DNA of 40,128 nucleotides from Rhizobium sp. (GTDB taxonomy: Bacteria > Pseudomonadota > Gammaproteobacteria > Xanthomonadales > Xanthomonadaceae): positions 1 through 40,128 of the forward strand of contig JAIBEO010000122.1 of NCBI GenBank assembly GCA_019459185.1, read 5' to 3'. Within the stretch, counting starts at the first letter, position 1, and every line of letters begins with the position of its first letter. Position numbers and translations under genes: made by a program. Below are positions 29,295 to 34,880 of this stretch, piece by piece. The notes below the pieces were generated by a model. It saw nothing but the letters and a program-made list of their open reading frames with translations, was not told the DNA's origin and made no database searches.

Positions 29295-30197
29295 ATGCTC
29301 ATGGCCATGCCCGACCTGAACCTGCTGGTGACCCTGGACGTGCTGCTGGGCGAAGGCAGCGTGGTGCGCGCCGCGCAGCGCCTGCAGCTGAGCCCGTCGG
29401 CGATGAGCCGCGCGCTGGCCCGCCTGCGCGAAGCCACTGGCGACCCGCTGCTGGTGCGCGCCGGCCGCGGGCTTGTGCCCACGCCGCGTGCGCTGGAACT
29501 GCGCGACCGCGTGCGCCAGGTGGTGGGCGACGCCGAGGCCGTGCTGCGCCCGGCGCTGAAGTTCGATCTCCCTTCGCTGGAGCAGACCTTCCGCATCCGC
29601 AGCAGCGAAGGTTTCGTGGAAACCTTCGGCCCGCGGCTGATCGCCCGCGCCGCGCAGGAAGCGCCCGGCGTGCGGCTGTGGTTCGTGCCCAAACCCGACA
29701 AGGACAGCGCCGCGCTGCGCGAGGGCAGCGTGGACCTGGAAACCGGCGTCACCAGCCGCAGCATGGGGCCCGAGATTCACACGCTGGGGTTGTTCCAGGA
29801 CCGCTTCATCGGCGTGGTGCGCAAGGGCCACCCGCTGGCAAAAGGGCGCGTCACGCCGGAGCGTTATGCGGCGGCGGCGCACGTGCTGGTGTCACGGCGC
29901 GGGCTGGAAACGGGGCCGGTGGACGAGGCGCTGGCGGCGCTGGGGCTGGTGCGCAGCGGCGCGGCGACGGTGGGTGGTTTTGCTTCGGCCATCGCGCTCG
30001 CCGGCGCTTCCGACCTGGTGGCCACGGTGCCGGAGAAACACACGCGCGGGCTGTGCGGGGAGTTGCACGGTTTCGCGCTGCCCATGCCGGTGCCGGGCTT
30101 CACGGTGTCGCTGTTCTGGCACCCGCGGATGGACGCCGATCCGGCGCACCGCTGGCTGCGCGGCCTGTTCGCCGAAGCCTGCCGCGACGGGGAGTGA
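29295..30197 (+). CDS. LysR-family transcriptional regulator
   Basis: A 300-residue LysR regulator. The N-terminal winged helix-turn-helix is LNLLVTLDVLLGEGSVVRAAQRLQLSPSAMSRALARLREATGDPLLVRAGRGLVPTPRAL (about 6-66). An effector-binding type-2 periplasmic-fold domain follows and ends with VSLFWHPRMDADPAHRWLRGLF. It is divergent from the MFS/barrel/CPBP operon and most likely controls it. The start may be any of three nearby methionines (29295, 29301, 29307). Its stop codon, TGA at 30195-30197, is the first three bases of the 32-bp hairpin repeat, so the original gene end was probably replaced by the repeat. Confidence 0.92.
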   Translation: MLMAMPDLNLLVTLDVLLGEGSVVRAAQRLQLSPSAMSRALARLREATGDPLLVRAGRGLVPTPRALELRDRVRQVVGDAEAVLRPALKFDLPSLEQTFRIRSSEGFVETFGPRLIARAAQEAPGVRLWFVPKPDKDSAALREGSVDLETGVTSRSMGPEIHTLGLFQDRFIGVVRKGHPLAKGRVTPERYAAAAHVLVSRRGLETGPVDEALAALGLVRSGAATVGGFASAIALAGASDLVATVPEKHTRGLCGELHGFALPMPVPGFTVSLFWHPRMDADPAHRWLRGLFAEACRDGE

Positions 30198-30226
30198 ACC
30201 AGGTTGATTTTATTGAACCAGGTTCA
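30195..30226 (+). repeat. 32-bp hairpin (REP-like) repeat, copy 1, at the end of the LysR gene
   Basis: An imperfect palindrome with outer arms TGAACC and GGTTCA, inner arms GGTT and AACC, one A-A mismatch and a ten-base loop rich in T. It is followed by TTTCTT, so it could act as a terminator. It is identical over all 32 bases to copies 2 (33357-33388) and 3 (34199-34230, opposite strand). The first three bases are the LysR stop codon. This copy is not next to a transposase. Confidence 0.95.
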
Positions 30227-30241
30227 TTTCTTGGTGCGGAC

Positions 30242-33131: not shown

Positions 33132-33356
33132 GTGTGTGGTTCCCTGCATTGAGGGTCCGCGCATTGCGCCGGACCCTGGGATGGCCGAAGCCAAGGCTCC
33201 CGCCGGAGGCAGGAGCAAGGGGCTCAGTTGCGGAGAGTGGATGGAAGTGCAGCGCGGCTGAGTGGCCGTTACGACCTTGCGTCGTAGTGCAGGCGGAGCA
33301 TGCGCCTTTCGCCGTTACCCGTGTGTTACGACCGCTGGTCCGGTTCATAAACCCGG
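33132..33356. other. Gene-free region upstream of the fasciclin gene, with a repeated 9-mer
   Basis: No credible gene. The region should contain the minus-strand fasciclin promoter. The 9-mer GTTACGACC occurs twice on the plus strand (33268-33276 and 33325-33333), and the first copy is part of a small dyad TACGAC-N5-GTCGTA. These could be regulator sites or chance. Repeat copy 2 begins at 33357, and the stretch from there to the transposase start (33494) holds only that repeat and its leader. Confidence 0.4.
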
Positions 33357-33388
33357 TGAACCAGGTTGATTTTATTGAACCAGGTTCA
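33357..33388 (+). repeat. 32-bp hairpin (REP-like) repeat, copy 2, left end of the transposase unit
   Basis: Identical over 32 bases to copies 1 and 3, and followed by TTTTCTTC. It lies 105 nt upstream of the transposase start, in the same orientation as the gene. Together with copy 3 it frames the transposase as an inverted pair. Confidence 0.95.
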
Positions 33389-33493
33389 TTTTCTTCGGCG
33401 GGTGTTGCTCCGACAACGGGTGGCGGAACTGTCGGATTTCCCGGCACGCCGCGGCTCGGGCCAACTCGGGCCTCGCCCACGAAGGACATCGCC

Positions 33494-34201
33494 ATGCCCG
33501 CCATCCCCCGGCTCGACCTCGCCAACGTGCCCAAGCACATCATCCAGCGCGGCGTGAACCGCACGCCCTGCTTCGTGCACCGGGCGAACTACTGGAAATA
33601 CCTCGACGAACTGGCGCTGGCCGCCTCGCAAACCGGCTGCGCCGTCCATGCCTACGTGCTGATGACCAACCACGTGCACCTGCTGGTGACGCCGCCGGAA
33701 GACGGTGCCACCAGCCGCATGATGCAACAGCTCGGGACGCGCTACGTCAGGTACTTCAACGCCATGCACCAGCGCACTGGCACCCTTTGGGAAGGTCGCT
33801 TCCGTTCCTGCCTGGTCAGCGCCGACGACTACTTCCTCACTTGCCAGCGTTACATCGAACTCAACCCGGTTCGCGCCGGCATGGTGTCTCAGCCCGCCGA
33901 CTACCGATGGTCCAGCTACCACGCCAACGCCCAGGGGCGCATAGATCCCCTGGTGAAGCCGCACCCGGTCTACCTAGGCCTCGCGGCGGACGCGCCGATG
34001 CGCTGGCAGGCCTATGCGGCCCTGGTGGCGAGCGGGATAAGCGATGCCCAGCGCGAGGAGATCTCGCGCTGCACGCACCAAGGGCGAGCCTTTGGTCCGC
34101 CGGCCTTCCAGCGCCAGGTGCGTCGCGAGCTTGCCGCGGAAACCCGTCTACGAAAGCGGGGGCGGCCGCTCGGCAGTCGTGGCAGCACCTTAATAAAATG
34201 A
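33494..34201 (+). CDS. REP-associated tyrosine transposase (RAYT, IS200-like Y1 family)
   Basis: A 235-residue HUH/Y1 transposase. The N-terminus LANVPKHIIQRGVNRTPCF, the metal-binding HUH motif MTNHVHLLVTP (His60, His62), GTLWEGRFRSCLV, and the catalytic tyrosine helix YFLTCQRYIELNPVRAGMV (Tyr120) are all intact, as is the DYRWSSYHANA motif. A basic C-terminal tail (RLRKRGRPLGSRG) may bind the repeat. It should nick and rejoin single-stranded repeat DNA. I chose the ATG at 33494 as the family's usual N-terminus; the frame is open upstream through repeat copy 2. Its TGA (34199-34201) is the first three bases of repeat copy 3. The gene is convergent with the response regulator. Confidence 0.92.
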   Translation: MPAIPRLDLANVPKHIIQRGVNRTPCFVHRANYWKYLDELALAASQTGCAVHAYVLMTNHVHLLVTPPEDGATSRMMQQLGTRYVRYFNAMHQRTGTLWEGRFRSCLVSADDYFLTCQRYIELNPVRAGMVSQPADYRWSSYHANAQGRIDPLVKPHPVYLGLAADAPMRWQAYAALVASGISDAQREEISRCTHQGRAFGPPAFQRQVRRELAAETRLRKRGRPLGSRGSTLIK

Positions 34202-34230
34202 ACCTGGTTCAATAAAATCAACCTGGTTCA
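34199..34230 (-). repeat. 32-bp hairpin (REP-like) repeat, copy 3, inverted, shared 3' end of transposase and response regulator
   Basis: Inverted copy of the 32-bp repeat, identical to copies 1 and 2. It supplies stop codons on both strands: the transposase TGA (34199-34201, plus) and the response-regulator TGA (34220-34218, minus). In the direction of the response regulator it is followed by TTTTATT. It could therefore serve as a two-way terminator between convergent genes. Confidence 0.95.
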
Positions 34231-34880
34231 TTTGATTCAGGGTCTACGGCCAGGCGGCCGGCCATGAGGACGGCCTGGGTGCGGTTGCTGGCGCCGAGTT
34301 TGCGCAGGATGGCGGTCATGTGGGCTTTCACCGTGGCCTCGGAGACGCCCAGGGCGTGGGCGATCTGTTTGTTGAGCAAGCCGCTGCCCAGCATGCCCAG
34401 CACGCGGAATTGCTGCGGCGTCAGTTCGGCCAGGCGGCGGGCCACCTGCGCTTCCTCGGGGTGCAGGCCGTCGGCGGTCTCGGCCTGCGGCGGCGCCCAC
34501 TGGCCGCCTTCGAGCACGGTGCCGATGGCCTCGCGGATCGTGCCCGGGTCGGAAGATTTCGGGATGAAGCCGGCGGCGCCGTGCTCCAGCGCGCGCCGCA
34601 CCACCATGGGCTCCTCGCGCGCCGACACCACCACGATCGGCAGCTGCGGCTGCACCGCGCGCAGGTGCACCAGCGCGCTGAAGCCGTGCGCGCCGGGCAT
34701 GTTCAGGTCGAGCAGCAGCAGGTCGGCTTCGGGGTGGGCCTCGGCGCTGGCGAACAGCGCGTCGGCACTGTCGGACTCCACCAGCCGCGCCTGCGGCAGC
34801 AGCTTCGACACCGCGCCCTTGAGCGCCTCGCGGAACAGCGGGTGGTCGTCCGCGACCAGGATGGTGGGCGCGGGCGACAC
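34218..34880 (-). CDS. NarL/LuxR-type response regulator (CrbR/ErdR-like) downstream of acs
   Basis: A 220-residue response regulator. The receiver domain contains ILVADDHPLFREAL, the phospho-acceptor Asp58 (LLLLDLNMPG) and Lys108 (FIPKSSDPG). A LuxR-type helix-turn-helix lies near 150-207 (LTPQQFRVLGMLGSGLLNKQIAHALGVSEATVKAHMTAILRKLGASNRTQAVLM). The GTG at 34880 lies 2 nt after the acs stop, so it is probably translated from the acs message; the frame is open through acs only as a shadow. In Pseudomonas (ErdR) and Vibrio (CrbR) such regulators activate acs. The last residues NEPG and the stop are encoded by the inserted hairpin repeat, replacing the original end; the DNA-binding domain is untouched. 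Confidence 0.9.
   Translation of the reverse strand: MSPAPTILVADDHPLFREALKGAVSKLLPQARLVESDSADALFASAEAHPEADLLLLDLNMPGAHGFSALVHLRAVQPQLPIVVVSAREEPMVVRRALEHGAAGFIPKSSDPGTIREAIGTVLEGGQWAPPQAETADGLHPEEAQVARRLAELTPQQFRVLGMLGSGLLNKQIAHALGVSEATVKAHMTAILRKLGASNRTQAVLMAGRLAVDPESNEPG

Follow-up and report, generated by a model that had tools for sequence, protein, structure and literature searches.

A terminal inverted repeat of a Y1 transposase in Arenimonas often lies in base-exact register with the stop codons of neighbouring genes

The window, the whole stretch of 40,128 nt that was analysed, holds three exact copies of a 32-mer, TGAACCAGGTTGATTTTATTGAACCAGGTTCA, against a mean of 0.00 in 100 dinucleotide shuffles; the three identical copies noticed in a preliminary description of this DNA are thus confirmed. 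It forms the core of the terminal inverted repeat (TIR) that belongs to a resident Y1 transposase unit. The transposase gene is enclosed by a 39-nt, 97% inverted repeat with copies 2 and 3 at its ends (36 bp in the comparison of TIRs between G000, the window's own genome, and other genomes). The features of the locus are listed below, G011 and G021 being two further genomes of the same genus.

29295-30197, + strand: LysR-type regulator gene (Pfam LysR_substrate, HTH_1), ending on copy 1
30195..30230, + strand: copy 1, a lone TIR core (32-mer at 30195-30226); the LysR-type gene stops at its first TGA
33348..33356, + strand: decayed tip of copy 2, TAAACCCGG; its counterpart in G011 is CGAATCCGG
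33357..33392, + strand: copy 2, upstream TIR of the transposase unit (32-mer at 33357-33388), opposite no gene end
33494-34201, + strand: Y1 tyrosine transposase gene of RAYT/TIRYT type, 235 aa (PF01797, E 4e-12), with its stop inside copy 3
34195..34230, - strand: copy 3, downstream TIR (32-mer at 34199-34230), providing stops for two genes
34231..34239, - strand: tip of copy 3, the 9 nt TGAATCAAA, outside the core (TGAATCCGG in G011, TGAACCAAC in G021)
34218-34880, - strand: LuxR-family response regulator gene, its C-terminal tail encoded by the element (...VDP-ESNEPG, then stop)

Read in its own direction, the 32-mer carries TGA in two of the three frames, the remaining frame being open, and a run of T's follows each copy, both as described beforehand. 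The hairpin also has the outer (TGAACC/GGTTCA) and inner (GGTT/AACC) arms that were first drawn, but its predicted single-stranded DNA fold is weak (-6.8 kcal/mol; z-scores of -1.95 for copy 2 and -2.61 for copy 1). In copy 3, the TGA at 34199-34201 (+) stops the transposase gene, which therefore does take its own stop from the TIR, as had been claimed; the second TGA, at 34220-34218 (-), stops the convergent response regulator gene. This latter stop, that of the LysR-type gene in copy 1 and the 9-nt tip are additions to the earlier picture. Gene calling relied on a codon model that had eight of the window's long ORFs as its training set, and Pfam domains were present in all ten neighbour genes tested. 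Two weak sigma-70-like promoter matches, with TAAAAT as second hexamer, lie at or in copy 3 (34170-34218; 0.4 expected).

When the outer sides of the repeats from three genomes are aligned, the TIR extends nine bases beyond the core, with a tip that mostly reads TGAAnCnnn and is followed by [TCG]GAACC. The working end of the TIR consists of TGAAnC, three variable bases and the hairpin [TCG]GAACC-A-GGTTS.... Taking the core's first TGA as offset 0, 33 of 85 ends have a TGA at -9, where every other offset between -14 and -4 has 0 to 3; here and below, counts out of 85 omit two 2-mismatch matches inside the transposase gene, neither of them gene-facing. That the tip belongs to the TIR is seen in G011, whose 44-bp inverted repeat reaches the GAA of the tip, and in a further genome, G003, in which the sequence common to both TIRs starts at CTGAA. 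Tips vary in a fourth core-bearing genome, G023; at two of its nine places (among the matches listed) TGAATCAAA stands on both sides, giving a TGA at both tips and a 31-bp palindrome, TGAATCAAATGAACC-A-GGTTCATTTGATTCA. Separately, a GDPD-family gene on contig C222 of G000 includes two core repeats in a stop-free frame (L030, 1392-1426); they encode RNEPGSRNEPGS near the C-terminus, a candidate in-frame repeat-encoded peptide.

The transposase carries the motifs NHVH (N59-H60-V61-H62), W99-E100 and Y120-IELNP, invariant in three orthologues. The sole solved relative found is TnpAREP (4er8, E 7e-5). Against the NCBIfam equivalog NF047646 (REP_Tyr_transpos) the protein scores 75.3 bits (E 4.5e-21), below the curated cut-off of 80. 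For the C-terminal helix-turn-helix (HTH) domain that goes with TnpAY1 subclass 2.1, no Pfam HTH match was reported even at E 10, and the structure model is poor (mean pLDDT 42.8, three orthologues). Contigs C201 and C241 of G000 encode at least two more Y1 transposases, with identities of 52% and 45%.

We searched 100 genomes, G000 included, with a strict 17-base core, TGAACCNGGTTNATTTT. Its exact form occurs in four of them, all of one genus: G000, G011, G021 and G023 (three strand-matches). The transposase in the first three is 100, 93 and 76% identical, and in G023 it is in two pieces (71% over residues 1-115, 50% over 164-225). Some homologue of the transposase is found in 82 of the 100 genomes; among the matches listed, the others reach at most 54% over at least 200 residues and up to 63% in shorter pieces. 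Because the core occurs only with the closest homologues, the repeat tracks one transposase lineage and not Y1 transposases generally. The tie between copies and transposase that had been anticipated is therefore borne out: the strict core is confined to genomes with this lineage, intact or broken. Inverted TIRs enclose the transposase in G000, G011 and G003, while G021 has the core on both sides; G003 lacks the exact core and holds a frame-broken transposase at the same response-regulator locus, with diverged inverted TIRs. On a wider scale, a 19-base pattern run against 84,980 species genomes matched 17 stretches, nine in Arenimonas and eight in unrelated taxa. More than one matching place was found only in Arenimonas (sp. 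SCN 70-307, UBA12134), the unrelated taxa having one match each. The window is accordingly assigned to Arenimonas.

Within genomes the search tolerated up to two mismatches. It gave 23 annotated places in G000, some of which are marginal in that they have a GGTACC head or fall within a gene, and in addition a single 13-mer on contig C43. An uptake-sequence-like signal was considered and rejected: the places are too few and bound to one transposase lineage. At the same tolerance G023 has 47 + 47 strand-matches, more than the genomes with an intact transposase (places L426-L434). In another genome, G019, contig C168 (L233) shows a decayed-looking element relic at the C172 locus, and its own transposase homologues are at most distant; this suggests loss of the enzyme and decay of the repeats. 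The convergent junction of rpiA and a Crp-rhodanese gene (L171-L185) carries different repeats by species: some have the TIR described here, G022 has an inverted pair of GGGGACGGGTGCATTT type, G012 and G016 have GTAGGAGCGCCTTCAGGCGCGA repeats, and G026 and G023 have repeats of AGGAAATAGTGAAGAGGAGATAGG type. It is perhaps a landing hot spot.

We then placed gene ends relative to the outer ends of the repeats in three genomes (n = 87), calling an outer end gene-facing if a gene 3' end lay within -40 to +60. Fifty-two outer ends face a gene 3' end, and 35 of these 52 genes stop at exactly two offsets: 20 at the tip TGA (-9) and 15 at the core's first TGA (0). Six stop deeper, three of these being the response regulator's TGA at +10, and 11 are scattered upstream. 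By ortholog group, 21 of 28 have a stop at -9 or 0 in at least one genome. Under an even spread over 101 positions the probabilities are ~1e-43 (35/52) and ~1e-26 (21/28), figures to be read with caution since an even spread is crude, the offsets were found by looking and the three genomes share descent. Where a gene-facing end has a TGA at 0 but not at -9, that TGA is used in all 15 cases, and of the 26 with a TGA at -9, 20 use it; 28 of 85 ends have no TGA at either offset. In G023, which lay outside the set used to find the rule, five of nine facing gene ends (nine places among the matches listed, 20 of 94 strand-matches) stop at -9 or 0. TGAA follows suit, at 46/59 element-side gene ends versus 19/110 others (TGA: 52/59 versus 87/110), an excess that is partly built in, as the core itself reads TGAACC. 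In four ortholog groups, some species have the -9 form and others the 0 form. Copies are thus placed non-randomly relative to stop codons, as the preliminary description had supposed.

Are these stops native to the genes or supplied by the element? Both occur, judging from comparisons between species, whose DNA is roughly 75-97% identical, so that later indels can mimic junctions. At six junctions the TGA is the native stop, its position unchanged relative to relatives without the element. At C139, where G019 is element-free, the stop sits just where G019 has it for the left gene in G000, G011 and G021 and for the right gene in the first two; the right gene in G021 ends on a TGA four bases before the tip. 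The native position is also kept at C172 (right), at C91, by the Crp-rhodanese gene in G021 and by rpiA in G011. The base after the native TGA in G019 is C, G, C, T and T at five comparable junctions, C172 being omitted for the element relic it carries in G019; at the element junctions it is A. This A seems to be element-derived, which places the junction at the TGA.

At four places the gene end is trimmed or replaced: the response regulator, rpiA, the Crp-rhodanese gene and probably the LysR-type gene; two of them show both outcomes depending on the species. In G019, without the element, the response regulator ends in ...VDPGSLQAEGDAGA; in G000, G011 and G021 its last 11 residues are replaced by E(S/P)xEPG and a stop. 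Compared with G019, the Crp-rhodanese gene lacks two codons in G000 and G011. In rpiA the stop comes one codon early in G000, and the gene runs on into the element in G021. The C-terminus of the LysR-type regulator is ~4 aa shorter than that of a 76%-identical homologue in G002.

The repeat had been presented beforehand as a portable gene end, and this holds in part: it describes the response regulator, some rpiA and Crp-rhodanese genes and probably the LysR-type gene, and fails at the six junctions that keep their native TGA. As an explanation of the register, it would mean that the element has no preference for stop codons, that insertions into last codons survive through the element's TGA, and that selection does the rest. 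The replaced and shortened tails, and the read-in at rpiA, are what it expects. However, the native stop positions kept at both ends of C139, at C172 and C91, in the Crp-rhodanese gene of G021 and in rpiA of G011 are not, and it predicts that the TGA at +10 be used roughly as often as that at 0, whereas one ortholog group only uses it. We regard it as unlikely, although it is the strongest of the alternatives.

A stop codon plus terminator in one module had also been proposed; TGA in two frames is present and used, whereas the terminator half is unproven. A terminator consensus scan found 5 sites versus 4.0 in shuffles, none of them the repeat's own hairpin, one (33342-33362) overlapping the first bases of copy 2. 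A canonical terminator thus has no support. As RNA, lone copies fold moderately (-14 to -23 kcal/mol), and three inverted pairs give -65.2, -44.8 and -57.7 kcal/mol (z -12.7, -7.2 and -10.0). This strong folding, and the position of several elements between convergent genes, would suit paired TIRs that the host keeps as bidirectional terminators, the transposase having only made them. We consider this improbable: in the pairs the T-run lies inside the stem and not behind it, no repeat hairpin is listed by the consensus scan, the genes on either side of some copies run in the same direction (C83, C91, C31), copy 2 is upstream of a gene, and at C172 only a decayed relic is left in G019. Least probable of all is a spread of copies by recombination or gene conversion among intergenic palindromes with the enclosed transposase incidental, since, for all that one site bears differently edited elements in G000, G011 and G021 and that the two registers alternate at four ortholog groups, inverted TIRs bound the transposase in G000, G011 and G003, the core flanks it in G021, and the two co-occur in 4/100 genomes.

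Cleavage and joining by Y1 transposases take place on single strands, at a short motif beside a hairpin; in REPs this motif is GTAG. We now propose that the repeat is the TIR of a TIRYT-kind Y1 unit that inserts at TGA(A), a sequence that stop codons provide, and give this reading a probability of roughly 0.55, slightly better than even. Mobility itself, cleavage and target specificity are inferred from the sequence comparisons. Lone TIRs and inverted TIR pairs would be copied around the genome by a transposase that works on hairpin-folded single strands and cuts 3' of TGA(A). The cut end would be joined to a target TGA, making TGA the cleavage motif and the target motif at once. As TGA(A) is available at the tip, and also at the core where the core starts with T, cutting at either could produce the two registers; given their alternation between species, loss of the 9-nt tip may be a second source of the 0 forms. 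Copies would accumulate at stops because TGA is the commonest stop in this GC-rich genome (87/110 gene ends away from elements at the loci compared) and an insertion behind a stop is harmless. Finally, where an insertion or a later loss fell just inside a gene, the element's TGA, present in two of three frames, would end it. Counting against the TGA(A) proposal are the non-native stops, the 28/85 ends without a TGA at -9 or 0, the right end of C139 in G021, and the absence of the strict core from G003 despite the broken transposase at the locus.

The reach of the register was gauged in other families. At least 8 of 27 homologues outside the window's lineage end on a TGA of their own downstream TIR (L075-L078, L083, L085, L092, L093). 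We searched two other TIR types, ACTCTGACCCC and GTGAACCTGACCCC, in 14 genomes (12 with a match), with the Arenimonas-trained gene caller applied to other genera, and read 103 distinct sites of 121 matches and 71 of 72, respectively. Same-direction genes stop at the TGA at 4/103 ACTCTGACCCC sites, three of them transposase genes, and at 3/71 GTGAACCTGACCCC sites, two of them transposase genes. A stop register general to the transposase subclass was rejected on these counts at dispersed copies; the dispersed ACTCTGACCCC and GTGAACCTGACCCC copies lack neighbour-gene stops, as the TGA of these types is directed inward. Among the families compared, the register is a feature of the palindromic, TGAA-tipped Arenimonas one.

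Why REP-like repeats sit at gene 3' ends is an old question, and the usual answer is selection against insertions elsewhere. A stronger form of our proposal is that the transposase targets stop codons by sequence, its motif being TGA(A), so that the end of the element is written onto the stop and the element spreads without breaking genes; we hold this to be possible, though rather doubtful. If it is true, and if the gTAG published for REPs is taken into account, this may be why a stop codon is contained in the foot motifs of RAYT-type transposases, and it would explain the crowding of their repeats at gene 3' ends. Since the register is exact to the base, choice of TGA by the enzyme and selection among random insertions can be told apart by test. 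An enzyme that chooses TGA would be a natural safe-site integrator with the stop codon as its address. Even without targeting, this is a clean case of a mobile element that shares or supplies stops and rewrites C-termini in conserved genes (rpiA, LuxR-type response regulator).

IS200/IS605 elements, which have a short fixed target motif adjoining the element end, share the HUH/Y1 domain (PF01797) with the Arenimonas unit. They differ in the catalytic motif, Y[IV]ENQ in TnpA of subclass 1.1 versus YIELNP here, and in the long TIRs found here. G000 also holds no near-identical second transposase, the next copy being 52% identical.

With GTAG REPs and their RAYTs the element has in common a hairpin repeat, a dedicated RAYT, inverted pairs and proximity to gene 3' ends (Nunvar 2010, PMC2817692; Di Nocera 2013, PMC3733652). 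However, an ordinary GTAG REP was rejected, as the TIRs have no GT[AG]G foot: the single GT[AG]G match near copy 3 is a GTAG within the coding sequence of the response regulator, and reads GTCG in G021. The stop is instead a TGA at two exact offsets. RAYTs of subclass 2.5 carry DH[LF]H/YI[VI]ANP (PMC6006769), whereas the NHVH/YIELNP of the Arenimonas transposase marks another subclass. The preliminary description is upheld in that the transposase is of RAYT type and its cognate repeat differs from GTAG REPs.

The closest published system is that of the TIRYT 'TIRtrons'. Quentin 2018 (PMC6006769, Table 1) gives NHVH, WE and YIELNP as the signature of TnpAY1 subclass 2.1, with a median length of 238 aa, and considers this subclass probably the same as the TIRYTs of Di Nocera 2013. 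NHVH, W-E, YIELNP, 235 aa and flanking TIRs with dispersed copies are all found here; as in TIRtrons, the dispersed TIRs are moderately abundant and come as singles, pairs and clusters. In the sections of Di Nocera 2013 at hand, self-complementary TIRs are described, as are TIRs that overlap an end of their transposase gene, and the motif GGGGWSAS is found in some TIRs but not all, so that it is not strictly defining. This motif has no match in the TIRs of G000 or G011 on either strand. The Arenimonas TIR further differs in its TGAAnC tip and in the stop-codon register of its dispersed copies, of which those same sections make no mention.

Supply of stop codons by mobile repeats has precedents. 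The termini of GTAG REPs supply TAG stop codons to neighbouring genes (Di Nocera 2013), REPs lie very close to, or immediately downstream of, the stop codons of rayt genes (Nunvar 2010), and a review (PMC2229807) covers MITEs that bring stops in every frame, as well as in-frame fusions; the passages of PMC10969869 hold nothing on point about stop-codon-supplying elements. Searches of the main text of open-access papers turned up neither a TIR with a TGAA tip nor a stop register exact to the base. Altogether, stop supply by GTAG REPs is already known, and what seems to be new in the Arenimonas element is a TGAA-tipped TIR combined with this exact register.
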